A model generated the notes under the pieces. The model saw only the letters and a program-made list of their open reading frames with translations. It did not search any database and had not been told where the DNA came from. Both the position numbers and the translations under genes were made by a program. A stretch of DNA of 64,000 bases from a virus. The stretch covers positions 1 to 64,000 of the IMG/VR virus record IMGVR_UViG_3300035703_000016; one strand, written 5' to 3'. Below, piece by piece: positions 6,647 to 38,579 of the stretch. How positions within the stretch are numbered: position 1 is the stretch's first letter; every line of letters begins with the position of its first letter.

Positions 6647-6729
6647 TAGAAAGTTATTTCTCAAGTATTTATTTTTAACATTTGATAACCGCCGCCTCTT
6701 ATATAAAAAAACAAATATCAATTTTTATC

Positions 6730-6978
6730 CTATGGATGAATTTCCTCTAAGTTACGTTCACACACACTCAACCACTTGTCTTTTGTAAACGTATGATGAT
6801 CCAGAAGTGGAATATCCAAATACCAACAATTTTCTCCATAGTCATTAACACAGCTTAATGAAAGAATAGTGCCAATTTTCCCTATATATTCGTCTAAATA
6901 CGCATAACGCTTTTCTCCATATTCTTCTCTTGTCTTATTAATGTTTCCGCAAATAATTACTTTGTCTCCTGGTTTCAT
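6730..6978 (-). CDS. SH3-like (KOW-type) small protein, paralog A
   Basis: 82 aa. GDKVIICGN near the start and YIGKIGTILSL in the middle give the pattern of a small SH3-like barrel. Shares order and spacing (GDK..I, YIGK..TI, ND.G, C..L) with the 79-aa protein at 10465-10704, so the two are paralogs. No catalytic motif. Role unknown; such barrels often bind nucleic acid or protein. Confidence 0.55.
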   Translation of the reverse strand: MKPGDKVIICGNINKTREEYGEKRYAYLDEYIGKIGTILSLSCVNDYGENCWYLDIPLLDHHTFTKDKWLSVCERNLEEIHP

Positions 6979-6986
6979 ATATAATT

Positions 6987-7184
6987 TTATTTTGTTATTA
7001 TATTAACTCTATCTCTTATTCCTTCTGGATTAGTATGAAAATTAAAATTTGATTGAAGTTCTGTGTGTAAAGGTATTAGAATGCTAGAATAACCAAGATC
7101 TGGTAAATTATCTTCAAGTTGCTCATAATATGATCTAATTACTTTTAATCCATTTTCCTCTATACTCGACGTTATCTGTTTCAT
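6987..7184 (-). CDS. Hypothetical protein, 65 aa
   Basis: Starts MKQITSSIEENGLKVI; no recognisable family. The leader AAAAAACAAAAAAGGTATCC lies just before the ATG and similar GGTAT leaders occur nearby (7362, 8160). Confidence 0.5.
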   Translation of the reverse strand: MKQITSSIEENGLKVIRSYYEQLEDNLPDLGYSSILIPLHTELQSNFNFHTNPEGIRDRVNIITK

Positions 7185-7205
7185 CCCGGGATACCTTTTT
7201 TGTTT

Positions 7206-7373
7206 TTAATTATTTAATTGATTATCTAAAGTTAATTCTATATTATTGACAATAATAATATGTATAGGAGTACTAAGATAGTTAAATAGATATTTATAAT
7301 TAACATGATCTGGTTTATTATTATATAAAATTAAGTCTAATAATATTGATGATTCTAAAAATACCTTTTTCAT
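7206..7373 (-). CDS. Hypothetical protein, 55 aa
   Basis: MKKVFLESSILLDLILYNN start; Asn/Ile/Leu-rich. It resembles the ORF just upstream (7375-7599) in the order VFL(E/K)S, LDL, NYL(S/R)(T/I)PI, so the two seem to be a tandem duplicate. The ATG follows the upstream stop directly. Confidence 0.45.
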   Translation of the reverse strand: MKKVFLESSILLDLILYNNKPDHVNYKYLFNYLSTPIHIIIVNNIELTLDNQLNN

Positions 7374-7752: not shown

Positions 7753-7950
7753 CTAAATAACAAAGATTCTAAATATAAAGACTACGATTAAATAAATACC
7801 AATAGCTGTTATTATCTTACTAATAGATTCTATTGCTATAAGAGTAAAATAGTCTGTAATATGATGTTTAATCTTATTACAAACTATAATAACAAGACCT
7901 AAAGTCAGTATACTTAATAAAGAGATATACGCGTCGATTAACTGTTCCAT
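7753..7950 (-). CDS. Small membrane protein, 65 aa, two spans
   Basis: MEQLIDAYISLLSILTLGLV hydrophobic segment, a short basic loop (NKIKHH), then a second hydrophobic stretch to the C-terminus. The start MEQL(I/L)D resembles that of the 39-aa protein at 13829-13948. Function unknown; a holin-like role is possible but unsupported. Confidence 0.5.
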   Translation of the reverse strand: MEQLIDAYISLLSILTLGLVIIVCNKIKHHITDYFTLIAIESISKIITAIGIYLIVVFIFRIFVI

Positions 7951-8214
7951 GCAGTAAATTTAACTCTTTTTGTTTAAATAAGAGAGATTAAGTTGAAAGT
8001 CATCGCAAATATTTTTAAAAGTATGCTTGATTACTAAGAAGTTATGTTTTTTTCCTGGAAGTTTTGAGTGGAATAGGGATTCTAAGACTTTGAATTTTTG
8101 TTATTACCCACTTCCGTCTCCATATATTCCTATCTCTGCCTCATTTACCTCCAGATACCTTTTTTGTTTTTACTATATCCGATCTTCTCCACTCTTTCTT
8201 AATATTTTATTATC
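7951..8214. other. Intergenic stretch without a convincing gene
   Basis: AT-rich. The minus strand contains another copy of the A-run/GGTAT leader near 8155-8175, followed by a short open piece (YLEVNEAEIGIYGDGSG) with no start codon, which may be a gene remnant. Nothing else is evident. Confidence 0.3.
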
Positions 8215-8829
8215 CTATTTAAGAGAATTTAATGCATCTTCTATCCACTGATTGGCATTTTTTACTCTTATTAGTTCTTTCTGCCAGTTTTCAGAATGAT
8301 AGTCTATAGAATGTAATATAGTCTCTGTTCTATCTTTTCTTATTTTTTCAGCTGATAGATTATGTATAGCTTTTTCTAGACTTTCTATTTCTTTATCATG
8401 ATATTCGCTGTTACCATCCCATTTTATAGTTTCTTCTAACTGTTGTTTTAGAAAAGTCTTGTATGTTTCATGGTCTAGAGTTGGTGGAACATAATCTTCG
8501 GCTTGTTTTAAAAAAGATTCTAGCTTTTGTCTTGTTTTTTCTATTTCTTGCTTTTTATTCTTATAATACTTTATAGATTCCTCTAGCTCTTTTCTAGTAT
8601 CTACTAGCAACTGTTCATCGGTTGTTCTGTTAAGTTTTAATAGATTCTTATGTTCTTCTTGGAGTTTTTTTTGATGATACGTATCTGTTTCTCTTGATTT
8701 ATATGGAGTACTCATGCTGTCATCTCTCATATGAATAGCTGCACCAAAAGCTCTTATACACTGTGTAGCGTATTCTTTGAATGTTTTTATAGAGCCATCT
8801 ATTATTCCTTGTGTGTATCCGGTCGGCAT
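8215..8829 (-). CDS. Coiled-coil phage protein (MPTGYT family), 204 aa
   Basis: N-terminus MPTGYTQGIIDG, then CIRAFGAAIHMRDD, matches a small phage protein family I recognise by its MPTGYT start and CARAFGA-like motif. Residues about 60-200 are strongly charged and helical, probably coiled coil. Family function is unknown. Confidence 0.65.
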   Translation of the reverse strand: MPTGYTQGIIDGSIKTFKEYATQCIRAFGAAIHMRDDSMSTPYKSRETDTYHQKKLQEEHKNLLKLNRTTDEQLLVDTRKELEESIKYYKNKKQEIEKTRQKLESFLKQAEDYVPPTLDHETYKTFLKQQLEETIKWDGNSEYHDKEIESLEKAIHNLSAEKIRKDRTETILHSIDYHSENWQKELIRVKNANQWIEDALNSLK

Positions 8830-22333: not shown

Positions 22334-23092
22334 TTAGTCTATGTACTTTAAATTTGATTCATTGTCATGTTTTATATATGACCCCCATTTATACTTAGCA
22401 TATTGATGAGCATGATTCTCCTCGTATTGTCTATTCTTTCCAGTTGCTATTTGAGCAAAATGATAAAAATGGGATTTATAAGTCCTATTCATACTTAAAT
22501 TAGACAAATTACATTTTAAAAAAAAATCCCAATCAGCTACAACTCCGTTAGTGGGATAATTTTCATCCCATCCGCCAAGTCTTAAAAAGTCAGTTTTATT
22601 TATTAGAAATGGAAGAGTCGATCCGCAATGATAATCTATGTCTTCTTTTTTTATAGAATTTGAATATTCTATAAATTTTTTAAAATTAAACTCTTGAACT
22701 GATTTTCCTAAATCTTTTATATTAAATTGAGAAAACATACTAGGACTAGGCTCTATTTGATTTGGAGATAATACAGAATTATGTTCATAGTCGCAAAGTA
22801 AATCATTATCCCAATTATCAGGAAAAACATTATCATCATTAACAACTAGTATCTTATCAAATCTAGAATTGTACACACCAATATTAATAGCTCTGCATAA
22901 CCCTTGATTCTCTTTTAAGTTTATGATGTCTATCTGAGAATCATATTTCTCTAAAACTTCTCTATTTTCTTCATAAAATCCATCTACGATAACTAATATC
23001 TGATTTTGATTTCGTTGTCCAGAAATAGCTGATTTGATGCAAAGATTTAAATATTCTGGCTCTTTATATGTGGGAATAATTACGCTTATCAT
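22334..23092 (-). CDS. Glycosyltransferase family 2
   Basis: About 252 aa from ATG 23092 (MISVIIPTYKEPEY); the TTG four codons upstream is less likely because the ATG overlaps the previous stop as ATGA. GT-A signature: SVIIPTYKEP, ENQGLCRAINIGV, VVNDDN (D-x-D-like metal site), GGWDENY acceptor region. Transfers sugar from a nucleotide-sugar; acceptor unknown. First in position of a run of coupled sugar genes. Confidence 0.75.
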   Translation of the reverse strand: MISVIIPTYKEPEYLNLCIKSAISGQRNQNQILVIVDGFYEENREVLEKYDSQIDIINLKENQGLCRAINIGVYNSRFDKILVVNDDNVFPDNWDNDLLCDYEHNSVLSPNQIEPSPSMFSQFNIKDLGKSVQEFNFKKFIEYSNSIKKEDIDYHCGSTLPFLINKTDFLRLGGWDENYPTNGVVADWDFFLKCNLSNLSMNRTYKSHFYHFAQIATGKNRQYEENHAHQYAKYKWGSYIKHDNESNLKYID

Positions 23093-23784
23093 ATTTTTGT
23101 CCAATCTACTAGTGGAGATAGATATTTTACTTCTGTGTGTGTTGATAGTCCAGGTATTGGAGTTATTAAAGATCTTCCTTTTTCTCTTAATTCTAAAAAT
23201 GATTGAAAATCATTTGGATGAGCTGTATTTAAATGCTTATTCCAAATTTCTAAATCTTGTTTTAAAATTTCTACTGTAGATGCAAATGTCATAGTTGTAG
23301 AATTCGTAAGTTTCCAGTGAGTAGACTCACTTAATATAACTCTTGTTACCTCTCCTCCGTTTTCTATGAAAGGATTATCTCCACCTTCAGAGTGATTCAT
23401 ATATTTATCTGGATGATCATATAAAGAGACATAGTCTGCTAATCGCAATCCCTCTTTTATAATTTTGTCAGAGCCAGGGACATATAAATAATCGTCTTCG
23501 GCAAAGAAAACAAATTCATTATCACTTAAATCTTGAATAGATTTGTGTAAAATATACTTAAAAGATTTAGCATTATTTAAAGATGTCTCTTCTACTCTAT
23601 TTACATTACAAGATTTAATAAATCTCATTAATGCTTGATCAGTAACGTTGTCAGCTATAATAGTAATACTATTTTCTAAATTATTAAATTCTCTTAAGAA
23701 ATTAGAAAGACAATATTCTTTTGTTGCAAACTCTAATCTCTTTTTATTATAAGAGTTGTTACTTATTCTGTAGTATATTTTCAT
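23089..23784 (-). CDS. Glycosyltransferase-like protein, 231 aa
   Basis: Contains FVFFAEDDYLYVPG, an acidic D-D metal motif after a hydrophobic strand as in GT-A enzymes, and a STHWKLTNSTTMTF segment. N-terminus MKIYYRISNNSYNKKR. Overlaps both neighbours (4 and 26 nt), so it is translationally linked to the other sugar genes. Substrate unknown. Confidence 0.6.
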   Translation of the reverse strand: MKIYYRISNNSYNKKRLEFATKEYCLSNFLREFNNLENSITIIADNVTDQALMRFIKSCNVNRVEETSLNNAKSFKYILHKSIQDLSDNEFVFFAEDDYLYVPGSDKIIKEGLRLADYVSLYDHPDKYMNHSEGGDNPFIENGGEVTRVILSESTHWKLTNSTTMTFASTVEILKQDLEIWNKHLNTAHPNDFQSFLELREKGRSLITPIPGLSTHTEVKYLSPLVDWTKI

Positions 23785-24484
23785 AAAAATTAGAATATTG
23801 TATTAAACTTGGAAATGTTGTTACTTTATATTTATCGAATAATCTATCTGAAATGTATAATTCTGGATTGATATTGAATTTTTCCTCTCCATGAGCTTTA
23901 CATGAAGAGTAATTATTCCACTTTTTATTTACATACTCTAAATTTAAATCTCTAATATTTGGAATAGAATCTCCTCCAGTTTCTGATAAATTATAATCAG
24001 CGCTTATTCCTAAAGTGGATATTGTTACTCCATTTAGTTTACATCTGTATTTATAATCATTGTCTTCTCCAGCTGCAAAAATAATGTTTTCGTCGAACAT
24101 ACCTACTTTATAATAAGTTTCTCTATGTATGCAAAATAAAGAAAATTCAAAAGCTCTATCATAAGTTCCAGCTATATTTATAGGAGAACAATTATTATAT
24201 AGGGCTTCTAAATATTCTTCACTGTATAAATTGTCTTCATTGCTTATAATTACCTTTTCTAGATTAAAAAACTCAAAAGCTAGCTTACATATAAAATTCC
24301 ATCCACCAGCGCATCCTATATTTTGTGGAATTGAATAATATAGATACGGAGTCAGCCTTTCTGAATACGTTTGATTTCCATTATCAATAATTCTTATTTT
24401 TGTATTTTTAAATTTTTCAGGATCAATCCAAGCATCTAAAAATTTAGAAGAACCATATCCTAATATAAACAAATTATAGTTCAT
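23759..24484 (-). CDS. Glycosyltransferase family 2, 241 aa
   Basis: IPQNIGCAGGWNFICKLAFE is the conserved N.G.AGG.N block of GT2 enzymes; KVIISNEDNLYSEEY supplies the acidic metal site and FAAGEDNDYKYRCK the ED motif. Coupled to neighbours by overlaps. Donor and acceptor not predictable. Confidence 0.7.
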   Translation of the reverse strand: MNYNLFILGYGSSKFLDAWIDPEKFKNTKIRIIDNGNQTYSERLTPYLYYSIPQNIGCAGGWNFICKLAFEFFNLEKVIISNEDNLYSEEYLEALYNNCSPINIAGTYDRAFEFSLFCIHRETYYKVGMFDENIIFAAGEDNDYKYRCKLNGVTISTLGISADYNLSETGGDSIPNIRDLNLEYVNKKWNNYSSCKAHGEEKFNINPELYISDRLFDKYKVTTFPSLIQYSNFYENILQNK

Positions 24485-25370
24485 TTTTTATTATTTTTAT
24501 AATATCATCATCAGAAATAAAAGGATCTAGATTTATATGATTTTTATTAGGAAATAAATTTGCTGGTCCTAAATTAACTTTATCAAATTTCTTCATTATT
24601 CCATTAGGTCCATATAAAGCATGCATAAAGTCTGTGGTTATTATGCACCTAGTTCCGACTCCTGCAGCTAAATTAGTTAATCCCCCCTCTTGTCCTATTA
24701 CTAAATCACAAATTTTTAATATAGAAGCTGTATTAGTATAAGTTGATGTAGAATCTAAAGCAGTATGATATTGAGTTACTCCGTGTTCATACCCTATTGG
24801 AATTAAAATATAATCTTCGTATAAACTATTCACTATTTTATCTATATTTCTAGTGTTTAGTTGAGAATGAGACATTATGTCTTTAATATTTTTTAGTCCT
24901 CCGTTATACTCTTCTTTCGTATATGAAATTGTCAAATTCTTCCAATTTGCGACATATCCAATAACTTTCTTATTGTCTTTATTTAAAAGAGATAATTCAT
25001 ATTTAATTGACTCATCTAATTCTCTATCAGTATAAACTTCATACTGTGGAGTTGAATTTGCTATTCTGCAATGTTGTTGATACCATATTGTAGGTTGAAT
25101 ATCTTGTTTACATTCTGGCAATTCATATACTTGATTATAATTATTTAAATCTACATTATCAGGTAAAATCACTTTAGGTCCTTTCTCTTTGGATAAAAAA
25201 ACGTTATCTATGTATGGATTATTTTTAAGTAATTTATACGGTTGTGGAAATCCTATGCAATAATCAACTATACAATACGGATTTTGAATTTTTAATTTCT
25301 CTGCAATAGAAGAAGCAAATAATATGTCTCCTATAAATCCGTATGTTTTAATTAATACTCTATTTTTCAT
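24474..25370 (-). CDS. Glycosyltransferase family 9 (heptosyltransferase-like)
   Basis: 298 aa from ATG 25370 (MKNRVLIKTYGFIGDILF); a TTG 18 codons upstream is inside the previous gene. GxGD-type N-terminus, SIAEKLKIQNPYC, and C-terminal DLVIGQEGGLTNLAAGVGTR resemble the GT9 nucleotide-binding region (GxEGGxxHxA type, His replaced by Asn). GT9 enzymes usually act on lipopolysaccharide core. Start overlaps the upstream stop (TAATG). Confidence 0.65.
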   Translation of the reverse strand: MKNRVLIKTYGFIGDILFASSIAEKLKIQNPYCIVDYCIGFPQPYKLLKNNPYIDNVFLSKEKGPKVILPDNVDLNNYNQVYELPECKQDIQPTIWYQQHCRIANSTPQYEVYTDRELDESIKYELSLLNKDNKKVIGYVANWKNLTISYTKEEYNGGLKNIKDIMSHSQLNTRNIDKIVNSLYEDYILIPIGYEHGVTQYHTALDSTSTYTNTASILKICDLVIGQEGGLTNLAAGVGTRCIITTDFMHALYGPNGIMKKFDKVNLGPANLFPNKNHINLDPFISDDDIIKIIKNEL

Positions 25371-26059
25371 TATTTCTTTTTTATAGTTACTCCCCATATA
25401 ATATTTGGAGTATAAGAATTGCAATAATTTTTATAATTCTCTTCAGTATTTATTTCTTCTCCTACTTCATACCATTCATTAAAGTCGAGTGACATATAAA
25501 ATTTTTCATTATCTATTTTATATCCGTTATTTTCGACCTCTCGTCTTATTTTATCTTGTCTTTGTTTATTATAATATCTCAAAAATGGATATCCAGATTC
25601 TTGATAATTCATAAATGGGCCAACTGGAAGAGTAATTATTAATTTAGAATCTTCATTTTTAAGAAGTCTACAAGCTTTTAAGATTCCGTGTATATCATGA
25701 TTCCAAAGTATTATATCTTCTAAAGTAGAATCGATGTCATATGCTTTACCTTCCCAAAACATTCCAAAATGTTCAAATACTGATATTGAAATAATATAAT
25801 CATATTTCAGATCTTCATTAAACTTTATAAAGTCTGTCTTTATATGTTTCCAGTCAGTATTCTGTCTCAACCACGAATTAGGCAATGATTCTAAAATATC
25901 AGTAGTTGTAACATTTTTAAAACCTAAAGCATGTACACTCTCACTTACACCCTCTTCTCCTCCTTTACATTCACCAACAATTAAAACCTCTTTATTTAGA
26001 TCTTCAAGTTGATTTAGAAAATATGGAACTTCTACATTTTTTGTGCCTTTTAATACCAT
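25370..26059 (-). CDS. Class I SAM methyltransferase, 229 aa
   Basis: KEVLIVGECKGGEEGVSESV is a motif I variant, followed by VTTTDILES (acidic motif II), YDYIISISVFEHFG (post-motif with E-H) and LIITLPVGPF. Looks like methylation of a small sugar or nucleotide rather than a DNA methylase, because no DPPY/NPPY motif is present. Within the sugar block. Confidence 0.6.
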   Translation of the reverse strand: MVLKGTKNVEVPYFLNQLEDLNKEVLIVGECKGGEEGVSESVHALGFKNVTTTDILESLPNSWLRQNTDWKHIKTDFIKFNEDLKYDYIISISVFEHFGMFWEGKAYDIDSTLEDIILWNHDIHGILKACRLLKNEDSKLIITLPVGPFMNYQESGYPFLRYYNKQRQDKIRREVENNGYKIDNEKFYMSLDFNEWYEVGEEINTEENYKNYCNSYTPNIIWGVTIKKK

Positions 26060-26061
26060 AT

Positions 26062-26649
26062 TTACTTTTTACGTTTAAGAATAGTCAACCCATTATTGTT
26101 TGTGAATCTTTCATATAATTCCCAATTCTTATCTTTTTCTTCTAAAAAATTCTGTACTGCTGGCCATAATCCACTTAATCCTGACCTTAAATTTGTCCAC
26201 CTATTTTCTGAAGCTGTTGACTCATCATTATATTCAAAAGAAGTAGTATCATGAATTATAATAAATTTCCTAACTTTATGTGAATGAAGTTCTAACTCTG
26301 ATGTTAATTGATCATAAGTGTGCCAAGTATCTATAAAAAGCAAATCAGTTTCTTCAATTTCAATATCTAATACATTTGCTTTATTAAATTGATATTCTAC
26401 ATTATTATATTTTGCTATATCATATACCTTTTTTATATCTGATCCCCAATAACTTGGATCTTGAATATCATAGCTAATTAATTTTTTAGGAAAACCAGCT
26501 AAAAATGCCCAAGTAGATACAACTCCTCGAACTCCCATTTCTGTTATATGATCGCACATACTTGCATATTTTACTAACGTAAGTATGTGTTCATTTATGT
26601 CTGATGGCTCTTGATATATTCTTTCTATTATTTGTTGTATATTTTCCAT
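26062..26649 (-). CDS. Class I methyltransferase / CmcI-like, 195 aa
   Basis: ATG at 26649 (MENIQQIIERIY) chosen over an upstream TTG inside the previous gene. ITEMGVRGVVSTWAFL is the Gly-rich motif; DLLFIDTWHTYDQL and FIIIHDTTSFEY match CmcI/rhamnosyl O-methyltransferase-like proteins (metal Asp/His). Substrate unknown. Confidence 0.6.
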   Translation of the reverse strand: MENIQQIIERIYQEPSDINEHILTLVKYASMCDHITEMGVRGVVSTWAFLAGFPKKLISYDIQDPSYWGSDIKKVYDIAKYNNVEYQFNKANVLDIEIEETDLLFIDTWHTYDQLTSELELHSHKVRKFIIIHDTTSFEYNDESTASENRWTNLRSGLSGLWPAVQNFLEEKDKNWELYERFTNNNGLTILKRKK

Positions 26650-26651
26650 TT

Positions 26652-27308
26652 TTATTTTTTTATCATATAACAACCACAAGGAAGAATTGCTCCTCTTTTG
26701 TATATAAATAATTCATCTGTTTCTGGATGTCTCAGTTCTATTTCTATTTTTCTATCTTCAAAGAAATCAAAAATTGCATCTGTTGTTGGTTGTAAACAAG
26801 TATCATCGAATACTATGAACCCACCTACACTTACTTTGTCATATAAACAATCTAAAATTTCTCTAGTAGCAGAATAAGCGTCTACATCTATTCTTAATAG
26901 AGCTATTTTTTTAATTTTTGATTTAGGTAAAGTATCTTTAACAAATCCTGGGAGAAATTTTATCCTCTTTTGGTTTATGTCTATATCAAATTTTTTAAAA
27001 TTATTTTCTACAGTCTCTTGAGTTACTTTTATCATGGGATTATAACTAGGAGTATGCGTCTCTCTGTCATATTGGTACTTAGCTGTGTCTAGAGGCTGAA
27101 ATCCTTCAAAAGAATCTACTATCCATATATTTTTGGTTTCAAATAGCTTAGTTAAAAATATACTCATTCCTCCAGCCCACACACCGCACTCTATTATATC
27201 TCCAGATACTTCATTGATTGCTTGTTGATTTCTAAGTATTGTATCAAATCTCTCTTTAGATACTAATGTTGTATTTTGAGATAATAAATCTTGGATTAGT
27301 TTTTCCAT
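26652..27308 (-). CDS. TylF/MycF-type O-methyltransferase, 218 aa
   Basis: SGDIIECGVWAGGMSIFL (SAM motif E-x-G-V-x-x-G), WIVDSFEGFQP, LRIDVDAYSATREIL and GGFIVFDDTC are the typical TylF blocks, including the Asp pair that binds Mg. TylF enzymes methylate sugar hydroxyls, which suits the surrounding glycosyltransferases. Confidence 0.8.
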   Translation of the reverse strand: MEKLIQDLLSQNTTLVSKERFDTILRNQQAINEVSGDIIECGVWAGGMSIFLTKLFETKNIWIVDSFEGFQPLDTAKYQYDRETHTPSYNPMIKVTQETVENNFKKFDIDINQKRIKFLPGFVKDTLPKSKIKKIALLRIDVDAYSATREILDCLYDKVSVGGFIVFDDTCLQPTTDAIFDFFEDRKIEIELRHPETDELFIYKRGAILPCGCYMIKK

Positions 27309-27311
27309 ATT

Positions 27312-27923
27312 TTAAATCGTGTCGTATAATTCGTTTTGTTTTTCTTGTTTTTTTATATCTTTTGGGTGAATTAAGAAAAAATCATCAGAAAAATGAGATG
27401 ATATAATGTGTCCAATAATTCTTTCATGAACTTTTCCATCCCACCTAATTTCCAATTTATTTTTAACTAATCTACTTTGATAGTCTGGAAAATTTATTCT
27501 ATTTTGAGTATCTACTCTCCATCTCCATTTATCAATATGTCGCTGAGTCAATCCATTTACTGTGTTCCATCTAGGAATATAATATAAATCAATTTCTGGA
27601 TTTAATTTTAAAATTTCTTTTAGATAAATTACAAGATTTTCATTCAAAAATTCATCTGCGTCTATATAAAAAATATAATCCTTTGTTGCGAACTTTTTTA
27701 TATTATTCTTAAAAGTAGCAAAATCTTTATTTAAAGAGAATTCTATATTTTTTATACTAGGATGATTAACTAAAACGTCTCTCACTTCGCTTGTGGCATT
27801 ACTATCTAATTGTACGATTACTTCATCGTCTTCATCTTTAAATGACTCCAATTGACACAAGAGACGCTCCAGTTCATCATGTTCATTACATGCTGTTATT
27901 GCAAAACTTATTGTTGGTTTCAT
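27312..27923 (-). CDS. Glycosyltransferase family 2, 203 aa
   Basis: ISFAITACNEHDELERLL (GT2 start), DDEVIVQLDSNATS, IFYIDADEFL (DAD metal motif) and RLVKNKLEIRWDGKVHERI (W..x.HE) place it with LPS core-type GT2 enzymes such as glucosyltransferases acting on lipid-linked sugars. A tiny ORF overlaps its start (27920-27988). Confidence 0.75.
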   Translation of the reverse strand: MKPTISFAITACNEHDELERLLCQLESFKDEDDEVIVQLDSNATSEVRDVLVNHPSIKNIEFSLNKDFATFKNNIKKFATKDYIFYIDADEFLNENLVIYLKEILKLNPEIDLYYIPRWNTVNGLTQRHIDKWRWRVDTQNRINFPDYQSRLVKNKLEIRWDGKVHERIIGHIISSHFSDDFFLIHPKDIKKQEKQNELYDTI

Positions 27924-27988
27924 AATCTTCTTTTGATATAATTTAAATTAGAATTAAATTGCAATTTATCTAACTCTTCAGTTTTCAT
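27920..27988 (-). CDS. Possible 22-aa leader ORF
   Basis: MKTEELDKLQFNSNLNYIKR then RL stop; the TGA overlaps the ATG of the glycosyltransferase gene, as expected for coupling. May be real or chance. Confidence 0.25.
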   Translation of the reverse strand: MKTEELDKLQFNSNLNYIKRRL

Positions 27989-27992
27989 ATAA

Positions 27993-28442
27993 TTATTCTA
28001 ATTCAAAAGCCCCAATATAATCACATGCATCAAAAAATCCAAGTATACCAAAACTCTTAAGAGTAGACGGATCAGATTTATATGACTGTGATTTAAATCT
28101 TGGCATTTTCTTTTCTTCTTCAGTTAAAGGAACAGTCTTTATAGCAGAAAAATAACAATCGTCTGCAGTCTTTCCATTTAAGAAAACTATACCTTTATTT
28201 TCTATATTAATAGTTCTAGGATACCATACTCTTCCTGATTCATCTTGAACTTTAGCTGCTTTATGAAGCTCAGGCATTTCTACTTCAAAAGAATCAAAAT
28301 CAAACTCTCCAACTATCATTAAGTCTGTTGATTGATATCCACAATTAAAGCAAGAGTACGATTTTTTAGTTTCATTTATATTATCGATCATGCAAGATTC
28401 AATCTCTTTACATAAAGGACATGTCATTAATATGTCTATCAT
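27993..28442 (-). CDS. Zinc-ribbon protein, 149 aa
   Basis: CPLCKEIESC and CFNCGYQ at the N-terminus form a four-Cys zinc ribbon. The remainder (SGRVWYPRTINIENKGIVF) is a beta-rich domain of unknown role ending KSFGILGFFDACDYIG. It sits inside the sugar gene run 4 nt from the GT4 gene, but no enzyme motif is visible. Confidence 0.55.
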   Translation of the reverse strand: MIDILMTCPLCKEIESCMIDNINETKKSYSCFNCGYQSTDLMIVGEFDFDSFEVEMPELHKAAKVQDESGRVWYPRTINIENKGIVFLNGKTADDCYFSAIKTVPLTEEEKKMPRFKSQSYKSDPSTLKSFGILGFFDACDYIGAFELE

Positions 28443-28446
28443 TTTA

Positions 28447-29745
28447 TTATTTTTTTGGTAGTAATGAAGGAAGTTCTATCTTTTTTAAATTTGGTAACTT
28501 TAATTGAATAGGGCGAGGGACTATTTCTAATATTTTATTTAATTTAGTCTTCATCTCTTCAAATGAAAAATTAGTTTTTACATAATGAGATTGTCTTTTT
28601 GAATTATCTGTATATTTTTGGTAATTTTCAAATAAATCTACCATTTTAGCAGAAGCCAATTTCATATTCGGAGAAAACCACTTAGATCCCTGTATAAGCA
28701 TATTCTGTGCTTGAGCTGACGGATGTATATCTGTTAATTCTCCTGGAATTAATATTGAATACTCTTGATGACAAAAGTCTGTATGACCTGACCAAAAAGA
28801 AACTATTGCTGGTTTTTTACTCATAAAGAATTCTGCAAGAGGTCTACCAAAACCCTCTCCTTTAGTTAAGTATAACATTGCTTTTACTTTCTTATGATTA
28901 TATAGAAGATTCATCTCTTTATCGTCTATATCTCCATGAATTAAGTAGATATTTGGTAAATCTTTTGAGTTTATTTGTTTACGAATAGCGTCTATATTTT
29001 CTAAAATAGAATCTCTATCCATTATTGAATTAGTTCCTCTAGCTGTTTTGAGTATAAGAGCCGGCTTTTTTTTCTTATCTTTAAATGTTTCTAAGAATGT
29101 TTTTATTGTTAGTCCTAAATTCTTTCTATCTTCTCCAATGACTCCAGGTAACCAATGTCCAACAAATAAATAACAAAATGATTCTGGAATACTATCAAGA
29201 GATTTTGCTAATGGTTCTGTTGAAGAAATTTGTTCTGTGTAAAAATACTTAGAAATATCTATTCCCTCAAATAAAACTTCTACTGGTTTTTCTAATTTTA
29301 TCTGTCTAATAACTTGACCAGTTGCTTGATCTTGTTGGTTAAATGTAGAGTTTTCAAATACTGTTTTTGCATGTTGAGAAGAAACTAGAGTTAAATTCAT
29401 TCTATTACATCCGTCTATCCAACTAGGATCGCATAAAGTCGTTTCTATTCCAGCCGTCACTAAAATGTTATATTTTCCAATAGGCTGCGCTTCATTTGGT
29501 ACTGTGATTTGACACCATAAATCTGGTTGTTGAGTCAATTGATTTGCTATAAGAGGTCGTATCCATTGGTACTTTTCTTCATCTAAGTTATGCCATGGAG
29601 TATTTCCCCATCTTTGAGGAATAATTTTTATATCCCATTCATTTTTCTTAAGCTCATAAAGCGCTTTTACAAAATCATAACTTCTAGCGCCATATCCGCT
29701 GGCTGTTAAAATCGGGCAACTTATAACTGCTAATGGTTTTATCAT
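28447..29745 (-). CDS. Glycosyltransferase, GT-B fold (GT4-like), 432 aa
   Basis: N-terminal ISCPILTASGYGARSYDFV is a GT-B glycine loop; the C-terminal domain has NIYLIHGDIDDKEMNLLYN, then TKGEGFGRPLAEFFMSKKPA, the E-x7-E nucleotide-sugar site of GT4 enzymes. Paired with another GT4 at 30300. GT-B enzymes also include the T4 hydroxymethylcytosine glucosyltransferases, so a base-glucosylating role is conceivable but unproven. Confidence 0.75.
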   Translation of the reverse strand: MIKPLAVISCPILTASGYGARSYDFVKALYELKKNEWDIKIIPQRWGNTPWHNLDEEKYQWIRPLIANQLTQQPDLWCQITVPNEAQPIGKYNILVTAGIETTLCDPSWIDGCNRMNLTLVSSQHAKTVFENSTFNQQDQATGQVIRQIKLEKPVEVLFEGIDISKYFYTEQISSTEPLAKSLDSIPESFCYLFVGHWLPGVIGEDRKNLGLTIKTFLETFKDKKKKPALILKTARGTNSIMDRDSILENIDAIRKQINSKDLPNIYLIHGDIDDKEMNLLYNHKKVKAMLYLTKGEGFGRPLAEFFMSKKPAIVSFWSGHTDFCHQEYSILIPGELTDIHPSAQAQNMLIQGSKWFSPNMKLASAKMVDLFENYQKYTDNSKRQSHYVKTNFSFEEMKTKLNKILEIVPRPIQLKLPNLKKIELPSLLPKK

Positions 29746-29748
29746 ATT

Positions 29749-30288
29749 CTATTGTTGAGTTATTCTTATTATTTCTTTTTCTCCATTTGGTTTTGAGTAT
29801 ACGCAATGGCTTGGAGTTAATATAAATTCTATATCTTTCAATAGTTCTGCATATTTTTCTCCTATTCCAGATTTTATATACGCTATAGTCATATGCGGAT
29901 GATAATCTGGATAATTTGATGTAAATGGAAATTGTTTTAGTAAATTGTTAGCTTCTACTAGTCCTTCTCCAGAAACATTAAATTTTAAAACATCATACTT
30001 TTCATTTTCAAAAATAGAAGCATCTTTAATTTCACATGAACTAAATATAATAGAGCGTATTACGTTTTTTATTTGATCAGTGGTCACTTCTTCGTGTAAT
30101 CCATATAATAAAGTAGTATGGGGTTCTGTTTCTAATCCAAACGATCTATCGCCCTCTTCAGTATAAATGTCTGATTTTTTAATTATACTATGAATTAAAT
30201 TCATTTTAGGAAAATCAAAGTATAACATTACACATCCATAATCGTACGTCTGATTATCTTCTTTTAATAAATTAATTAATTTTATCAC
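29749..30288 (-). CDS. 2H phosphoesterase, 179 aa, candidate capsid-targeted protein
   Basis: Two H-x-T/S motifs, PHTTLLYG (about residue 57) and HPHMTIAYI (about residue 130), define the 2H superfamily (2',5' RNA ligase/cyclic phosphodiesterase type). GTG start gives MIKLINLLKEDN, which is nearly the same N-terminus as the unrelated protein at 44226-45173 and ends in L-K-E, the type of site cut by T4 prohead protease. It could be packaged in the head. 2H enzymes in phages can degrade cyclic oligonucleotide or nicotinamide signals, so anti-defence activity is possible. Confidence 0.65.
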   Translation of the reverse strand: MIKLINLLKEDNQTYDYGCVMLYFDFPKMNLIHSIIKKSDIYTEEGDRSFGLETEPHTTLLYGLHEEVTTDQIKNVIRSIIFSSCEIKDASIFENEKYDVLKFNVSGEGLVEANNLLKQFPFTSNYPDYHPHMTIAYIKSGIGEKYAELLKDIEFILTPSHCVYSKPNGEKEIIRITQQ

Positions 30289-30299
30289 TATTTTTAGTA

Positions 30300-31742
30300 T
30301 TAATATGTAAGTGGATGTTTAATTTTTTTAGGTTTGATGTCCTCAATTTTTATAAATTCAAAGCTTGCTCTCGGTTTAAATTTATCTATCGCTGTCTGTA
30401 AAGTATTACATACTCCATCTGCCATACTCTGAGCTGACATTTTAGATTCTGAAGATGTGACCCATTTTCTTCCAGATAAACCTCTTTTTTGTCTTTCTTC
30501 TGATGTCATACTATATACTTTGTTTATCGCGTCTGCTACATCTCTAAAATCACAACGATCATCAAATATATAAGGAGTAGGAATAGATCCAACTAGACTT
30601 AAATTACTAGGAAATACTGGTATTGCCCATTCTCCGCATTCTCTAAGAGTTCCAAAATGATTTGATGGCATCTCTTTTGTTGGTTCATACCACTTTCCAT
30701 CTTTTACAAATCTCATCTGATCTTGCATTCCTCCAGTTACATTTCCTATTATCATAGTTCCACTCATCATAGATTCTGTCAAACTTAATCCCCAACCTTC
30801 ATTTGAAGATATTAAAGCGGTAACATCTGCTAAATTATAGAGTAAGTTCATTTGTTCTGGAGTATATCTTTCTTCTGAAAAATAAACCTTTTGATAAGAA
30901 GGATCGCAAAGTAATTCAACTACTTTTGGAAGATCAGTTCCATGTTCATCAGTTTTTTGAGTATGAAGTAATAGAGCGCATTTAGATGCTTTTTCTTTTC
31001 CAATAGATTCTGTAAATTTAGACCAAGCGGCTATAAGATCTGAAGTTGATTTTCTCCTTATATTTCTAGCATTATACAATACTATAAATTCTGGATTAAA
31101 TGAGCCAAATATGCCCTTTTTCATTTTTTCCATTTCTGAATTAGCCTCAATCATAAACTCATTTATAGGAAAAAATGTCTTTTCGTTAATACCATGAGGA
31201 ACATAATTAATTATTTTATCTTTAATTTTCTCCTCTAGTACTAATTCAGTCAATATTTTAGTTTGTTTTGATATGCACATAAATGCGTCACATGACTCGT
31301 AATATGATTTATTGTATATAGGGGCTGGATCTGAATCCCAAATTTGTAAATATATAATAGGCATTCTTTTTCTTATTTCTGCCTCCATATCAAAAAGCCA
31401 TACGAAATATCTAGGATCTGTAAATAGCATAATAGCGTCAGGTCTCTCTATTTCTATTATTTGTCTTACTAGTTCTGGAGTTCCGTATCCATCTGTGGGA
31501 TACATTATAACTGAAGAATCTTCAATTTCTAAAATCTTGTTTGTATCTTGAGATAAGTCTAGTCTTTTTCCTTTTTCTGGATGATTTATTCCACCTGCTA
31601 TTTGAACCCAATTAAATTTATGAGCAGACCCTAAAACTATTTCTCTTGTCATAGTTGCTACTCCACTTGTCATTCTCAGATCATCTGATAGCAAAAGAAT
31701 TTTTTTCCTGCTGTCTTTATTTATGTAACCTTGTTTTATCAT
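30300..31742 (-). CDS. Glycosyltransferase family 4, 480 aa
   Basis: ILLLSDDLRMTSGVATMTRE (GT-B N-domain glycine loop), IYLQIWDSDPAPIYN, NYVPHGINEKTFFPI, VLYNARNIRRKSTSDLIAAW and ALISSNEGWGLSLTESMMSG (E-x7-E) are all classic GT4 blocks. Longest enzyme of the sugar block and first transcribed after the RHH-like gene. Acceptor unknown. Confidence 0.8.
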   Translation of the reverse strand: MIKQGYINKDSRKKILLLSDDLRMTSGVATMTREIVLGSAHKFNWVQIAGGINHPEKGKRLDLSQDTNKILEIEDSSVIMYPTDGYGTPELVRQIIEIERPDAIMLFTDPRYFVWLFDMEAEIRKRMPIIYLQIWDSDPAPIYNKSYYESCDAFMCISKQTKILTELVLEEKIKDKIINYVPHGINEKTFFPINEFMIEANSEMEKMKKGIFGSFNPEFIVLYNARNIRRKSTSDLIAAWSKFTESIGKEKASKCALLLHTQKTDEHGTDLPKVVELLCDPSYQKVYFSEERYTPEQMNLLYNLADVTALISSNEGWGLSLTESMMSGTMIIGNVTGGMQDQMRFVKDGKWYEPTKEMPSNHFGTLRECGEWAIPVFPSNLSLVGSIPTPYIFDDRCDFRDVADAINKVYSMTSEERQKRGLSGRKWVTSSESKMSAQSMADGVCNTLQTAIDKFKPRASFEFIKIEDIKPKKIKHPLTY

Positions 31743-34157: not shown

Positions 34158-34640
34158 TTAAAAATTTGAGGTTGAAAGATTTTTCATATACTTTATTGTA
34201 TTCTCATTAGTAATAGTGTGAATATGAGTCATAGCTTCTTGGTCTATTGGAATACACGTATTTCCATCAATCAAGTGTTCAATACAGCTTTTTTTAGTAA
34301 TCATAGTTTTTGGATCTAATTCATAAATCTTTCCTCCGTATCTATTATCTAATTTTGAAAGAGGAACAGCTATAAAATAAGTCCTATAGCTATTCATTAT
34401 TTTTTCAAGTTGATTATTTTTAACCATAAATGATTTATCTTTTATCATAGGAACGAGAGTTTTTACTTCTACGTCTTTTCCATCTACTAATAAATCTCTT
34501 TTTCTATCAAATAGATCTTCTGATAAAAGAACTACTTTTCCTTTTAGAGTGAAATAATTAGCTATTATTTTTTCTCCTAAATTTCCCAGCTCTTTATTTT
34601 TAAAATCCGAAGTATTCGAATATGAATTTAAGTATGACAT
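34158..34640 (-). CDS. PD-(D/E)XK-type nuclease-like protein, 160 aa
   Basis: LGNLGEKIIANYFTLKGK, then DRKRDLLVDGKDVEVKTLVP gives E...D...E-x-K, the pattern of restriction-endonuclease-fold proteins. Remaining sequence is strand/helix. Could be a small DNA nuclease; substrate unknown. Confidence 0.5.
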   Translation of the reverse strand: MSYLNSYSNTSDFKNKELGNLGEKIIANYFTLKGKVVLLSEDLFDRKRDLLVDGKDVEVKTLVPMIKDKSFMVKNNQLEKIMNSYRTYFIAVPLSKLDNRYGGKIYELDPKTMITKKSCIEHLIDGNTCIPIDQEAMTHIHTITNENTIKYMKNLSTSNF

Positions 34641-34644
34641 GTTT

Positions 34645-36441
34645 CTATTTTGATTCTAATATAGATTTGAACTTGAAGTATGATTTATGTTTTTCAACGC
34701 CTGGAATATTCCAACCATTATCGAAATCTTTTATCGTATGTTCTTGTTTTATATAATATTGCCATATTGGATTTTTTATATACTTTAACCATACACACAA
34801 AAGATCTTCTAAGTCAACGGGTTTCATATTATACCTTGCACAAAGTTTGTCAAAATCTTTATACTTAAATCCAGGTCTGAGAATTTTCATAGAGGCAGTT
34901 GCAGTTGGACCTAATTTACACTCAGACCACTCATCTATATCAAATAAACCTTTTATTTTTGTATCTAGATTCACATAATTTGCTAAATCCCCTGCCATTA
35001 ATAAGTAATGAAAATTAAAAGCATGTAGATTATGTTTGCTATTATACTGATTCATTACATCTACTATACCGCATAGACTTGTTTTTGGTTTAATATTCTC
35101 TATTATATGGTCTGCCCATGGTCTAAAATGATTAATAACAAGATCTTTAAGAGGATATCTAGGAGGTTGATTCACGCAACAACTAACAAAATTTCCCTTA
35201 TCTTCTTTCATAAACTTATAAAAGTCTACATGAGAATTATAATTTTGAAAATTTAAAAGAATAGTGTTATTATATCCGTGATTAAATTGATTTGAAGTTC
35301 CAGATCCAAAAATCCTATGAGAATAGATTAAAAATAAATAATCATATATTTCCCAATTTGGATTTGCAATTGGTTTATAAATATCCCAAGTAAGTGATTC
35401 TTTACCCATAAAATAGTCTTCAAGCAAGAATATAAATCCTTCATATCTTCTATCAATATTATGGAATAGGTTTACATTGTCTATGTAATTATCTCCAGTA
35501 TTAAACTCTCTTTTTCTTGTGTCAATAAAGACTTTTTCTGTCTTTCGGTTGATATCGATATAGTAATCCAAACACTCTAAAGCTATCGGATTCCATCCAT
35601 TTTCATCTAGTGTAATATTTGCTTTTGACTTTTTTTCTTTATCTTTTATCAAATACACGCTAGAAGATCCAGAGTTTTTTTCTTCTTCGTTAATAGGAAC
35701 TGGTTCTGCAAAATCATAATAATCTTCAGTCTTACATTGATATTCTTCTTGAGGAACTGGGGGGCTAGATAGAATAAGATCTGATATTGACGTCTTTACG
35801 TCTGGTGTTAGCATATTAAAATGCTTTTCATAGATATGCAAATTTGTTATAAAAAAATGCATTGTGCCAATTTGAGTATTTGTTTCAAAACAAACCATAC
35901 TCATTAATTTTGCAAATGTGTATTGATCATTTGAGAATCCATAGACTAAATCAATACTTCTTGCAAATACTGTAAGATTTAGTCTTCCTTCTACTATGGT
36001 GAAGTTTAGCACAATGTTACAGGGAGTGTCTGAGGCATACCTGTCTAGCTCATTTATATCGTAATGAACAATTATAGCTCTTCTAGTATTAGGGTTGCTC
36101 TTGAGCTCCTGAATAGCTCGTTCTAGCTGACCTCCTTTTTGCCAAAAATATCCATAGTTTGAATTCACTTCATTTGTACCAGGAACTATCATGTTATTCC
36201 ACAGTTTGGCTCTTTTAGCAATTTCAGTCACATCTCTATTTCCTGACAAATACCAATGCCACTCATACTCTGCGTAAGATTGGTTAAATTTTCTCTCTGG
36301 TTCTGTGATAACCATTTGAAGTGGATTATCTAAAGTAAAAGAGACATTAAATTTAGTTTTTGTTTTTGAAAAGTCTACTCCATTTTGCATTATATCAAAA
36401 TATAGACCTCTAAAAGCCTCATTTGCATTTTTAAAATTCAT
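34645..36441 (-). CDS. Thymidylate-synthase-fold pyrimidine (hydroxy)methylase fused to a C-terminal domain, 598 aa
   Basis: Residues 1-250 are thymidylate synthase-like: YEWHWYLSG (Glu60), YGYFWQ, TPCNIVLNF with catalytic Cys141, FARSIDLVYG (Arg161, Asp164) and LHIYEKH (His202, Tyr204). In ungapped alignment with E. coli ThyA, Asp172 occupies the position of Asn177, which selects dUMP; Asp there is the dCMP signature of T4 dCMP hydroxymethylase. His after the Cys is Asn. Residues 290-598 are an extra domain with LIYSHRIFGS, HYLLMAGDLANYV and LGPTATASMKIL, reminiscent of the helical domain of phage base-hypermodification enzymes (inference). Next to dCMP deaminase and dUTPase. Confidence 0.7.
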   Translation of the reverse strand: MNFKNANEAFRGLYFDIMQNGVDFSKTKTKFNVSFTLDNPLQMVITEPERKFNQSYAEYEWHWYLSGNRDVTEIAKRAKLWNNMIVPGTNEVNSNYGYFWQKGGQLERAIQELKSNPNTRRAIIVHYDINELDRYASDTPCNIVLNFTIVEGRLNLTVFARSIDLVYGFSNDQYTFAKLMSMVCFETNTQIGTMHFFITNLHIYEKHFNMLTPDVKTSISDLILSSPPVPQEEYQCKTEDYYDFAEPVPINEEEKNSGSSSVYLIKDKEKKSKANITLDENGWNPIALECLDYYIDINRKTEKVFIDTRKREFNTGDNYIDNVNLFHNIDRRYEGFIFLLEDYFMGKESLTWDIYKPIANPNWEIYDYLFLIYSHRIFGSGTSNQFNHGYNNTILLNFQNYNSHVDFYKFMKEDKGNFVSCCVNQPPRYPLKDLVINHFRPWADHIIENIKPKTSLCGIVDVMNQYNSKHNLHAFNFHYLLMAGDLANYVNLDTKIKGLFDIDEWSECKLGPTATASMKILRPGFKYKDFDKLCARYNMKPVDLEDLLCVWLKYIKNPIWQYYIKQEHTIKDFDNGWNIPGVEKHKSYFKFKSILESK

Positions 36442-36910
36442 GTTGTTGTATTTCTATAAATTGTTTAAGAAATTGTAGGCCATCAGTTTTTCTATATTCT
36501 TCTAAATAGACTACTTTTTTAATTCCAGATTGCAGTATTAATTTTGAACATTCAATACAAGGAGATAGAGTAATATATAAAGTCGCTCCATTTACAGAAT
36601 ATCCAACTTTTGCAGCTTTTAAAATAGCGTTCATCTCTGCATGTATAACTTCTAGAACTGTTACTCCGCCTCTTTCACAACAATTATCTACTCCAGTAGG
36701 AGTTCCATTATAACCGAAAGATACTACATTGTCATCTTTTACTATTATTGCTCCAACTTTAGATCTTTCGCAATGTGACAGTTTAGATATCTCTTTAGCT
36801 ATATTTATATAGACTGTATCTAATTTTTTTTGCTTATCCATAACCTGTATTTTATTTTCTGTATTTATAGTTATTTTTATTCCATAACCATATAGATCAA
36901 AACTATTCAT
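36431..36910 (-). CDS. dCMP deaminase, 159 aa
   Basis: Zinc-site motifs HAEMNAIL and SPCIECSKLIL, plus the HCERSKVGAIIV and GYNGTP strands, match dCMP deaminase. Converts dCMP to dUMP. The first 23 residues precede a second possible ATG (36841) and are extra to the family. Overlaps the TS-like gene by 11 nt. Confidence 0.85.
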   Translation of the reverse strand: MNSFDLYGYGIKITINTENKIQVMDKQKKLDTVYINIAKEISKLSHCERSKVGAIIVKDDNVVSFGYNGTPTGVDNCCERGGVTVLEVIHAEMNAILKAAKVGYSVNGATLYITLSPCIECSKLILQSGIKKVVYLEEYRKTDGLQFLKQFIEIQQHEF

Positions 36911-36915: not shown

Positions 36916-37347
36916 TTAGTTTACTCCAGTACTACCAAATCCTCCATCTTTTCTTTGTGTCTCTATATCTTCAAGCTCATCTACAACTTCTATACTATCA
37001 TAATTCATAGGAATAAGAATAAATTGAATTATTTTTTGTCCTGGAGTTATTAATACTTGACTATTTCCAGAATTAAAAACATGAATGTGAATTTCTCCAG
37101 TATAGTCTTCATCAACAACTTCAGCTCCCTTTGTTAATTTATTTTTAGTTGCTACTCCAGATTTATTAAAAGCTATTAAAGCATAACCAGATGGGATTCT
37201 TACTTTTATTCCAGAAGGTATTAGAGCGTCTTCTCCTGGGGATAGTAGTATAGGTTCTAAGTCATTAGGTGTATAAAAGTCAATTCCCGCGCTTTTGGAT
37301 GTGCCTCTTGAAGGTGACTTAACGTCACGACATTTTTGAATTTTCAT
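36916..37347 (-). CDS. dut: dUTPase
   Basis: 143 aa, normal trimeric dUTPase length with all five motifs: AGIDFYTP, NKSGVATKN, VVDEDYTGEIHIHVFN, PGQKIIQFIL and RKDGGFGSTG. Hydrolyses dUTP to dUMP and pyrophosphate, keeping uracil out of DNA and feeding the TS-like enzyme. Confidence 0.92.
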   Translation of the reverse strand: MKIQKCRDVKSPSRGTSKSAGIDFYTPNDLEPILLSPGEDALIPSGIKVRIPSGYALIAFNKSGVATKNKLTKGAEVVDEDYTGEIHIHVFNSGNSQVLITPGQKIIQFILIPMNYDSIEVVDELEDIETQRKDGGFGSTGVN

Positions 37348-37349: not shown

Positions 37350-37628
37350 TTATTTAGTTTTATCGTAGTCTTCTTTATAATGTTCTACCATAGCTGTTAA
37401 ATACGCTATAGCATCAAGTATATTATCATATTTTTTAGCATAAGATTCTCTACTCATTTTAAGAGCAACCATGCATAGATACATGTCTTTCGCAGTTATT
37501 TGTTTTCCTGTCATAGTAGAAGCCAAAGTTGCTGCTTTTTCCATGCTCTCTTTCATTGGACCGTATTTTCTAGAGGATTCTTCTGCTCTACGATATACAA
37601 TATCTTGTGCGTGCTCAAGTACATTCAT
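37350..37628 (-). CDS. DUF6378-like protein, 92 aa
   Basis: RKYGPMKESMEKAATLAS, ITAKDMYLCMVALKMSRES and DNILDAIAYL fit the phage DUF6378 pattern (YG...N, L.M..LK..R, DN..D..GY), an all-helical family often near nucleotide metabolism genes. Function unknown. Confidence 0.6.
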   Translation of the reverse strand: MNVLEHAQDIVYRRAEESSRKYGPMKESMEKAATLASTMTGKQITAKDMYLCMVALKMSRESYAKKYDNILDAIAYLTAMVEHYKEDYDKTK

Positions 37629-37655: not shown

Positions 37656-38579
37656 TTAAGAAATTAATTCATGCAAGTACGGAAAATATTTAGGCTTTAG
37701 ATGTACTGACTGCTTAGATTCTAGAATATCCAGCATTTTAGTTCCGTCTGAATCAACCCAATCTTTTGGCCAACTAATATATTTCAATCCAGAATTTTCA
37801 ATCATTTCATTAGCTATGTCTCTTAATTCCATTCTCAATTGCCTACTTCCATAAAATGGTTTACCTTTATATAGTCCAGTTCCAGGTATTTTTCTAGATT
37901 CATGCTCTATAGGTATTAATTCTACTAAAGTTGGATTATTTAACTCTCTTGCAAAATTTATATACTTTGAAAACAGTTTTTCTGTTTCTTTATAGGGATC
38001 TTCCATTCTTCCTAAATGAAATCTTGTGTCTATATTTCCAAAATAAAGTACAACATTGCCAGGCCTCTGTTCATTAATAGCTTGAGCATTTGCATGTTTT
38101 AACCACCCAAATAAAGTCTTACCTGGATTATAACTAAGAGCGTATCCTGGTCTCCATACTGAAAGAGAATGAGAATCTCCTATAACTATATTTGGATTTG
38201 CTTTTGAAAAATAGTCAATAGCTCGACTTATTGGCCAATTATTGCTATCTACTTTTATTCTTTGATTAAATTTTCTAAAATCAAAAGTTTTATTTACAAA
38301 CTCAAATTGTCCATTGAATTTTGAGATAGCTTCCATTTTCTTAGCATGGATTGGACCAGGACCTCCAGGGATATTGAAACTTCCATCTACAAAATTAACT
38401 CCTTCGCAAATATAAAGTTTTTCATATTGATTCCAAGTTTCTGGACTTGGATTAACATCTATATCGTCTTGAGGATTAAAATCCTTAACCATCTTTGTTG
38501 ATATAAGGCCATAAGCACCTCCTTGAAAATTCAAGGAAGTACTCACATTTGCCATAATTGATACTAGAGCAGCTTTCAT
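37656..38579 (-). CDS. SGNH-hydrolase-like protein, 307 aa
   Basis: NIVIGDSHSLSVWRPG is a GDSH block, VLYFGNIDTRFHL resembles the G-x-N-D block, and KQSVHLKPKYF could supply the catalytic His near the C-terminus. N-terminal 100 residues are extra. Esterase or acyl-hydrolase activity on a carbohydrate is plausible. 17 nt downstream of groEL. Confidence 0.5.
   Translation of the reverse strand: MKAALVSIMANVSTSLNFQGGAYGLISTKMVKDFNPQDDIDVNPSPETWNQYEKLYICEGVNFVDGSFNIPGGPGPIHAKKMEAISKFNGQFEFVNKTFDFRKFNQRIKVDSNNWPISRAIDYFSKANPNIVIGDSHSLSVWRPGYALSYNPGKTLFGWLKHANAQAINEQRPGNVVLYFGNIDTRFHLGRMEDPYKETEKLFSKYINFARELNNPTLVELIPIEHESRKIPGTGLYKGKPFYGSRQLRMELRDIANEMIENSGLKYISWPKDWVDSDGTKMLDILESKQSVHLKPKYFPYLHELIS

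Follow-up and report, generated by a model that had tools for sequence, protein, structure and literature searches.

A phage gene joining a probable dCMP hydroxymethylase to a helical domain with the predicted fold of DNA base-hypermodification enzymes

A fused gene and its neighbors

The 64,000-nucleotide window analyzed here (positions 1 to 64,000 of IMG/VR record IMGVR_UViG_3300035703_000016) carries a long gene whose product begins like a thymidylate synthase (TS) and continues into a further domain of about 320 residues. Which pyrimidine does this enzyme act on, and what does the additional domain do? The source record is of phage origin, is 158,434 bases long, and may be incomplete. The gene reads on the minus strand as a single open reading frame of 598 codons (598 amino acids; positions 34645 to 36441), and the plus strand across the same interval is riddled with stop codons. 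The TS-like domain comprises residues 1 to 216 (positions 35794 to 36441, minus strand) and matches PF00303 over residues 49 to 216 with an E value of 7.6e-27. It is followed by a disordered linker (residues 217 to 274; positions 35620 to 35793, minus strand), which AlphaFold models at low confidence (pLDDT 27 to 63), and by the helical C-terminal domain (residues 275 to 598; positions 34648 to 35619, minus strand), helical in the AlphaFold model and homologous to a sister subtype. We refer to the sister as the A-subtype and to the form in the window as the B-subtype.

The identical fusion occurs in 11 IMG/VR loci (L002 to L012) at 74 to 80% identity, some of these contigs being near-identical. 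Purifying selection is strong on the C-domain (dN/dS of 0.023 to 0.025 where dS is unsaturated) and also acts on the TS part (0.05 to 0.10), with relaxed selection on the linker (0.2 to 0.45). With 75 to 89% identity to its relatives across residues 275 to 598 or so, and with such a low dN/dS, the C-domain is not the product of chance coding. Many IMG/VR contigs are near-duplicates, so their number exaggerates how much independent evidence there is; the stronger arguments come from conservation and from dN/dS across diverged members.

Ahead of the fused gene and in the same direction lie genes for a dCMP deaminase (positions 36431 to 36910, minus strand; PF00383, E value of 4e-27; phrog_174, E value of 1e-57), a dUTPase (positions 36916 to 37347, minus strand; PF00692, E value of 4e-25), a DUF6378 protein (positions 37350 to 37628, minus strand; PF19905, E value of 1.5e-12), an SGNH-hydrolase-like protein with the motifs GDSH, GNID, and SVH (positions 37656 to 38579, minus strand), and GroEL. 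The deaminase and dUTPase are directly adjacent to the fused gene, as the initial annotation had it. The DUF6378 protein and the SGNH-like protein belong to a conserved module, the latter as a neighbor of the C-domain. On the other side, positions 34158 to 34640 (minus strand) encode a conserved 160-residue protein with a PD-(D/E)XK-like D...EVK pattern recognizable by eye, for which family searches gave no credible match. Two phrog_2170 glycosyltransferase-like genes (positions 28447 to 29745 and 30300 to 31742) are found farther along the minus strand, in an interval (22334 to 31742) that holds, downstream of them, a run of open reading frames of 200 to 316 residues.

We consider it fairly likely that the fused gene encodes a two-step cytosine-modifying protein: a dCMP hydroxymethylase joined to a divergent member of the fold shared by amino acid:DNA transferase (ADDT) and the helical domain of 5-hydroxymethyl-deoxyuridine (5-hmdU) DNA kinase (HMUDK_hel), which would modify hydroxymethylcytosine further.

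The helical C-terminal domain and its partners

The C-domain has no match in Pfam, PHROG, or NCBIfam. Since its score against ADDT (PF18724) falls short of the Pfam cutoff, we class it not as an ADDT but only as sharing the ADDT/HMUDK_hel fold. Searching 50,697 cultured phage records by tblastn with both C-domain subtypes gave no credible match, and no relatives were found in GTDB genomes. The relatives form two subtypes, A and B, that are homologous to each other (hhalign E value of 4.7e-10). Subtype A is a standalone protein of about 347 residues, confirmed in 176 and 220 stretches in two IMG/VR scans. Subtype B, besides being fused in L002 to L012, stands alone in L303 to L308; in L013 and L014, a GIY-YIG endonuclease gene separates it from the TS gene.

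The C-domain of the window itself is modeled at moderate confidence only, and the evidence for the fold comes from the standalone A-subtype, for which AlphaFold gives a pLDDT of 88 and a pTM of 0.87. A Foldseek search of viral models with this structure matched an ADDT-annotated protein (E value of 1.9e-10, TM-score of 0.70) and a second ADDT (E value of 2.9e-3), with 5-hmdU DNA kinase helical domains at ranks 6 and 8 (PhiW-14, probability 0.75; phiRSL1, probability 0.51). A fold search of the PDB with the C-domain returned nothing similar; a hit to the DNA glycosylase TAG (probability 0.08) was discarded. These models predict that the C-domain shares the ADDT/HMUDK_hel fold, as seen in the sister A-subtype to which the window's B-subtype is homologous. 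The two reference families are also called aGPT-PPlase2 (ADDT; M6 gp051 and PhiW-14 gp109) and aGPT-PPlase1 (HMUDK_hel, PF18723; M6 gp055).

Short motifs point in the same direction. NFHYLLMAGDL (residues 476 to 486; positions 34984 to 35016, minus strand) has N, F, and D residues that are invariant in both subtypes. The segment LGPTATASMKIL (residues 510 to 521; positions 34879 to 34914, minus strand) is the counterpart of AGPGAxRGLNRL in HMUDK_hel, and DLEDLLCVWLKY (residues 543 to 554; positions 34780 to 34815, minus strand) is the counterpart of DxEHxLCxFxKY in HMUDK_hel and of ExETxLCKWKS in ADDT. The C-domain thus has in common with ADDT a helical fold and a C-terminal E-x-x-L-C motif, and with HMUDK_hel the order of short motifs NV..D+, WFML..R, F....DL....GPxA, and DxExxxC...KY. 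A scoring matrix derived from HMUDK_hel and ADDT, and only from their C-terminal motif, places the B-subtype sequences at the top of about 690 forward proteins, with 2 of about 660 reversed proteins scoring equally. Profile comparisons by hhalign are not significant, either against the HMUDK_hel family alignment (E values of 0.02 to 0.17) or against ADDT (0.09 to 0.4); HMUDK_hel against ADDT, the positive control, gave an E value of 1.5e-4. Similarly, hhalign against M6 gp051, M6 gp055, and Vi01_062c singly was not significant, and HMMER cross-searches between HMUDK_hel and the C-domain gave no signal exceeding that of reversed decoys. We regard the sequence link to HMUDK_hel and ADDT as suggestive only. 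The initial annotation had likened the C-domain to the helical part of enzymes that hypermodify phage bases; the predicted ADDT fold and the C-terminal motif support this, and profile comparison with the HMUDK/aGPT-PPlase families does not reach significance.

Further evidence comes from the genes that travel with the domain. In relatives we find a module of an SGNH-like protein, the helical domain as a separate gene, a pyridoxal phosphate (PLP) enzyme, and a TS-like enzyme with the base-selecting Asp (TS-Asp). Among 75 nonredundant standalone subtype-A loci, with counts limited by contig ends, a PLP fold-type II enzyme directly follows the helical gene in 70, the SGNH-like protein directly precedes it in 61, and a TS-Asp enzyme is present in 61. 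The PLP enzyme is found in none of 19 B-subtype contigs (Fisher P = 1e-15 against the 70 of 75 for subtype A, although contigs are not phylogenetically independent) and is absent from the window's record. It therefore goes with the subtype, much as in M6, where a PLP gene (gp052) directly follows the ADDT gene (gp051). The PLP protein matches phrog_7093 (E value of 2e-28) as well as fold-type II enzymes in the PDB and has an invariant lysine. In the SGNH-like protein the GDSH, GNID, and SVH motifs are invariant; its profile finds no sequence match in the PDB, so its fold is assigned from motifs only. The SGNH-like protein is fused to a subtype-A helical domain in one locus (L088), and one lineage that has lost the C-domain (L016 to L018 and L027) is also without the SGNH-like gene. 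Glycosyltransferases are not among the conserved module genes in relatives. The initial suggestion that those in the window could decorate the base is accordingly not upheld, and we set them aside as the decorating enzymes; what the conserved module contains is the SGNH-like protein, joined by the PLP enzyme in the sister subtype.

These observations bear on the alternative that survives best. Here the product of the TS domain would again be 5-hydroxymethyl-dCMP, but the C-domain would only bind DNA or a partner as a scaffold, or would have an unrelated function; hydroxymethylcytosine would then either remain undecorated or receive sugars from the glycosyltransferases in the window. The presence of the two glycosyltransferase-like genes, the nonsignificant sequence links of the C-domain, and the failure to find a kinase for the known ADDT route would fit such an arrangement. 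However, the C-domain is under very strong purifying selection, has enzyme-like invariant residues, with R, H, N, and D among them, and a fold that matches ADDT, and is constantly paired with the SGNH-like protein, and in the A-subtype also with the PLP enzyme, while the glycosyltransferases lie outside the conserved module. We consider a scaffold unlikely and favor a C-domain that takes part in modifying the base.

The reaction of the thymidylate synthase-like domain

The TS core described initially is complete: Cys141, Arg161, Ser162, Asp164, His202, and Tyr204 are all in place. The codon of the catalytic Cys141 lies at positions 36019 to 36021 (minus strand), and the residue is invariant. 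The motif RSxD...GFSND (residues 161 to 172; positions 35926 to 35961, minus strand) ends in Asp172, which HMMER alignments place without gaps on Asn177 of ThyA, as first noted, and on Asp179 of T4 gp42, where it is the second residue of the Asn-Asp pair. Had Asn171 occupied the base-selecting site, the assignment would change; gp42 carries the same pair in the same register, and Asp172 stands. Across 80 aligned TS-like homologues, Asp is found at this position in all 79 that could be scored, and the corresponding residue is Asn in all 6 coresident canonical ThyAs, one of them from the window's own genome. Together these make an ordinary TS role unlikely. That ThyA, a protein of 390 residues, is encoded outside the window at positions 129997 to 131169 of the record (minus strand; phrog_160, E value of 3e-103). 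The same record encodes a guanylate-kinase-like protein (phrog_1815) at positions 127581 to 128105.

A side-by-side residue table covering ten core positions shows the domain to be like T4 gp42 and unlike either the RB69/HY126 enzymes or the dUMP hydroxymethylases. The positions that agree with gp42 are W81, S94-N95-Y96-G97 (SNYG; positions 36151 to 36162, minus strand), D164, G168, N171-D172, H202, and Y204. W81, SNYG, D164, G168, and N171 are also common to the gp42-type enzyme of an Aeromonas phage. The elements Cys, Arg-Ser-x-Asp, Asn-Asp, Trp81, SNYG, and His/Tyr recur in T4 gp42 dCMP hydroxymethylase (PDB 1b49 and 6a9b), and no PDB sequence is closer by profile (E value of 5e-28); identity is about 25%, the core here is shorter (about 213 residues when standalone; one standalone homologue lies at positions 9817 to 10461 of L061), and the window's lineage adds the fused domain of about 320 residues. 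None of the NCBIfam TS models comes anywhere near its cutoff. The TS domain is therefore probably a T4-type dCMP hydroxymethylase, a reading that every sequence feature fits, and by homology its product would be 5-hydroxymethyl-dCMP. The hydroxymethyl-dCMP-type enzyme proposed in the initial annotation thus gains support from Asp172, the gp42 signature, the separate ThyA, and the NCBIfam scores.

The AlphaFold2 model of the TS domain (pLDDT mostly 80 to 97) matches MilA, HY126 AfhB, and T4 gp42 in Foldseek. The highest target-normalized TM-scores in the PDB search, 0.81 to 0.82, are to HY126 AfhB (9iqc and 9iqu), a dCMP hydroxylase that depends on flavin; this advantage is at least partly due to the shortness of the target. 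RB69p048 is essentially the 9iqc protein, and Mosigvirus makes 5-hydroxy-dCMP via a homologue of the hydroxymethylase (PMC13390438). The RB69/HY126 enzymes have the TS fold, a similar short length, and the base-site Asp, so Asp172 alone cannot tell hydroxymethylation from hydroxylation; other residues do. At the positions listed above, the 5-hydroxy-dCMP synthase has A, T-F-Y-G, N, V, L-D, H, and F, and thus lacks W81 and the S94-N95 of SNYG and has Asn for D164, Val for G168, and Leu for N171, all of which are kept here and in gp42. Sequence comparison likewise favors gp42 (hhalign E value of 2e-23 against 2e-17 to RB69p048). A flavin-dependent 5-hydroxy-dCMP synthase, leading to a base derived from 5-hydroxycytosine, is consequently very improbable, and we set it aside on the residue table and the profile comparison.

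Methylation deserves equally little credence. An Asp at ThyA position 177 suffices to switch methylation to dCMP, as in N177D ThyA (PMC8670742), and the TS domain might likewise make 5-methyl-dCMP, with a C-domain unrelated to base chemistry. Against this, the full gp42 signature is present, and the gene keeps company with genes of the hypermodification type, whose products work on a hydroxymethyl group. It is also highly unlikely that the domain is a divergent TS or a dUMP hydroxymethylase that feeds hypermodification of thymine in the manner of M6 and ViI: the adjoining dCMP deaminase and dUTPase make dUMP, and known ADDT/HMUDK systems work on hydroxymethyluracil, but position 172 is Asp in every scored homologue, a canonical ThyA coexists in the window's record and in five relatives, the NCBIfam TS scores are low, and the dUMP hydroxymethylases of ViI, M6, and Goe26 lack W81, SNYG, and the Asp.

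Divergent enzymes of this kind also occur in the cultured Bacteroides fragilis phage BF503P2 (OP172671), which has two dCMP-hydroxymethylase-like genes (positions 34973 to 35779 and 37853 to 38533). The second is 44% identical to the window's TS domain, and the 10.7 kb around it contain no homologues of the C-domain, the PLP enzyme, or the SGNH-like protein.

A possible route of cytosine modification and related loci

Taking the fused protein as a hydroxymethylase joined to a modifying domain, we propose the following route. By homology, Cys141 would attack C6 of dCMP, with Asp172 picking cytosine. Methylene-tetrahydrofolate would give the carbon, as the signature residues suggest, yielding 5-hydroxymethyl-dCMP that would then be built into phage DNA. 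The C-domain would act on hydroxymethylcytosine in DNA, its presumed substrate: it may transfer an amine, or a group derived from an amino acid, onto the 5-methylene carbon, or it may supply the DNA- or base-binding part of such an activity. Gene order and fusions suggest that the adjacent SGNH-like protein joins the same pathway. In the sister subtype, the PLP enzyme may remodel the attached group; the window's subtype has no PLP enzyme.

In M6, ViI, and PhiW-14, hydroxymethyluracil in DNA is phosphorylated by a 5-hmdU DNA kinase, after which alkylamine transferases act (PMC6449724). The module resembles this scheme with a cytosine-type first enzyme, and it differs from the ADDT and HMUDK_hel systems in its dCMP-type rather than dUMP-type hydroxymethylase and in the kinase: no 5-hmdU DNA kinase (PF18748) was found in six records including the window's, which may be incomplete and were searched without a positive-control phage. 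The explanation we favor thus does not account for the activation that the known pathway requires. Activation could come from the SGNH-like protein, from a kinase of general function (the AAA_33 protein encoded at positions 142701 to 143096 is one candidate), or by other means. No Pfam-level ADDT or HMUDK_hel is recognizable in the 158-kb, possibly incomplete record. Two further points count against the explanation: no gp56-type dCTPase was identified, and the dCMP deaminase and dUTPase also fit an ordinary dTMP supply.

Amino-acid and polyamine chemistry is known on phage thymine, and to our knowledge amine and amino-acid side chains have so far been described only there. Where phages build on hydroxymethyl- or hydroxycytosine, the known additions are mainly sugars, together with a carbamoyl group (PMC8670742). 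The latter, a nonglycosyl modification, is added by 5-hydroxymethylcytosine carbamoyltransferase, which is found beside TS-Asp, dCMP deaminase, and pyrophosphohydrolase genes (PMC8670742) but belongs to an unrelated enzyme family, no member of which is seen in the module here. We raise tentatively the possibility that a widespread family of uncultured aquatic phages carries amine or amino-acid side chains on 5-hydroxymethylcytosine, made by a divergent ADDT/HMUDK_hel-fold enzyme with its SGNH-like partner and remodeled by the PLP enzyme in one subtype. The joining of the two domains in one gene suggests that these freshwater-type phages have a previously undescribed way of decorating cytosine. 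Fusion of the probable hydroxymethylase to a transferase-fold domain would physically tie the first modification step to a later one. The four-gene module (SGNH-like protein, helical domain, PLP enzyme, and TS-Asp) occurs in more than 200 IMG/VR stretches, is unannotated in the libraries searched, and offers concrete candidates for new DNA-modifying enzymes in what is likely a counter-restriction system of aquatic phages.

Cultured relatives exist in the Aeromonas phages 31 and 44RR2. PHG31ORF233c of Aeromonas phage 31 (795 residues; positions 160183 to 162570 of NC_007022), annotated as hypothetical there and in relatives such as 44RR2.8t, is a single fused protein whose SGNH-like N terminus is homologous to the product of window positions 37656 to 38579 and whose C terminus matches HMUDK_hel (PF18723) with an E value of 3.6e-3, below the curated cutoff; the phage also has a gp42-type enzyme. 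We regard PHG31ORF233c as a candidate enzyme of DNA modification among T4-like phages in culture. In the literature examined, no modification is described for these phages. PLP enzymes of the same family occur in Erythrobacter phage ZS04 (PV416405, positions 2326 to 4764), fused to a DNA methylase domain, and in Microcystis phage Mae-JY30 (PP438422, positions 26021 to 27612), beside ParB and sulfiredoxin genes; these loci may possibly be further base-modification systems.

Several relatives carry traces of homing endonucleases. In L013 (positions 2428 to 3057) and L014 (positions 6699 to 7328), the GIY-YIG gene between the TS and C-domain parts is of the GIY-YIG/NUMOD3 homing type and leaves two open reading frames. 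In L015 to L018 and L027, where the C-domain is cut down to a remnant of 79 residues, another GIY-YIG insertion is present. In L011 (positions 7942 to 8790) and L012, an HNH-type open reading frame lies just downstream of the fused gene and is followed by a second copy of that gene's last 30 or so codons, a repeat that looks as if left by homing-endonuclease insertion.
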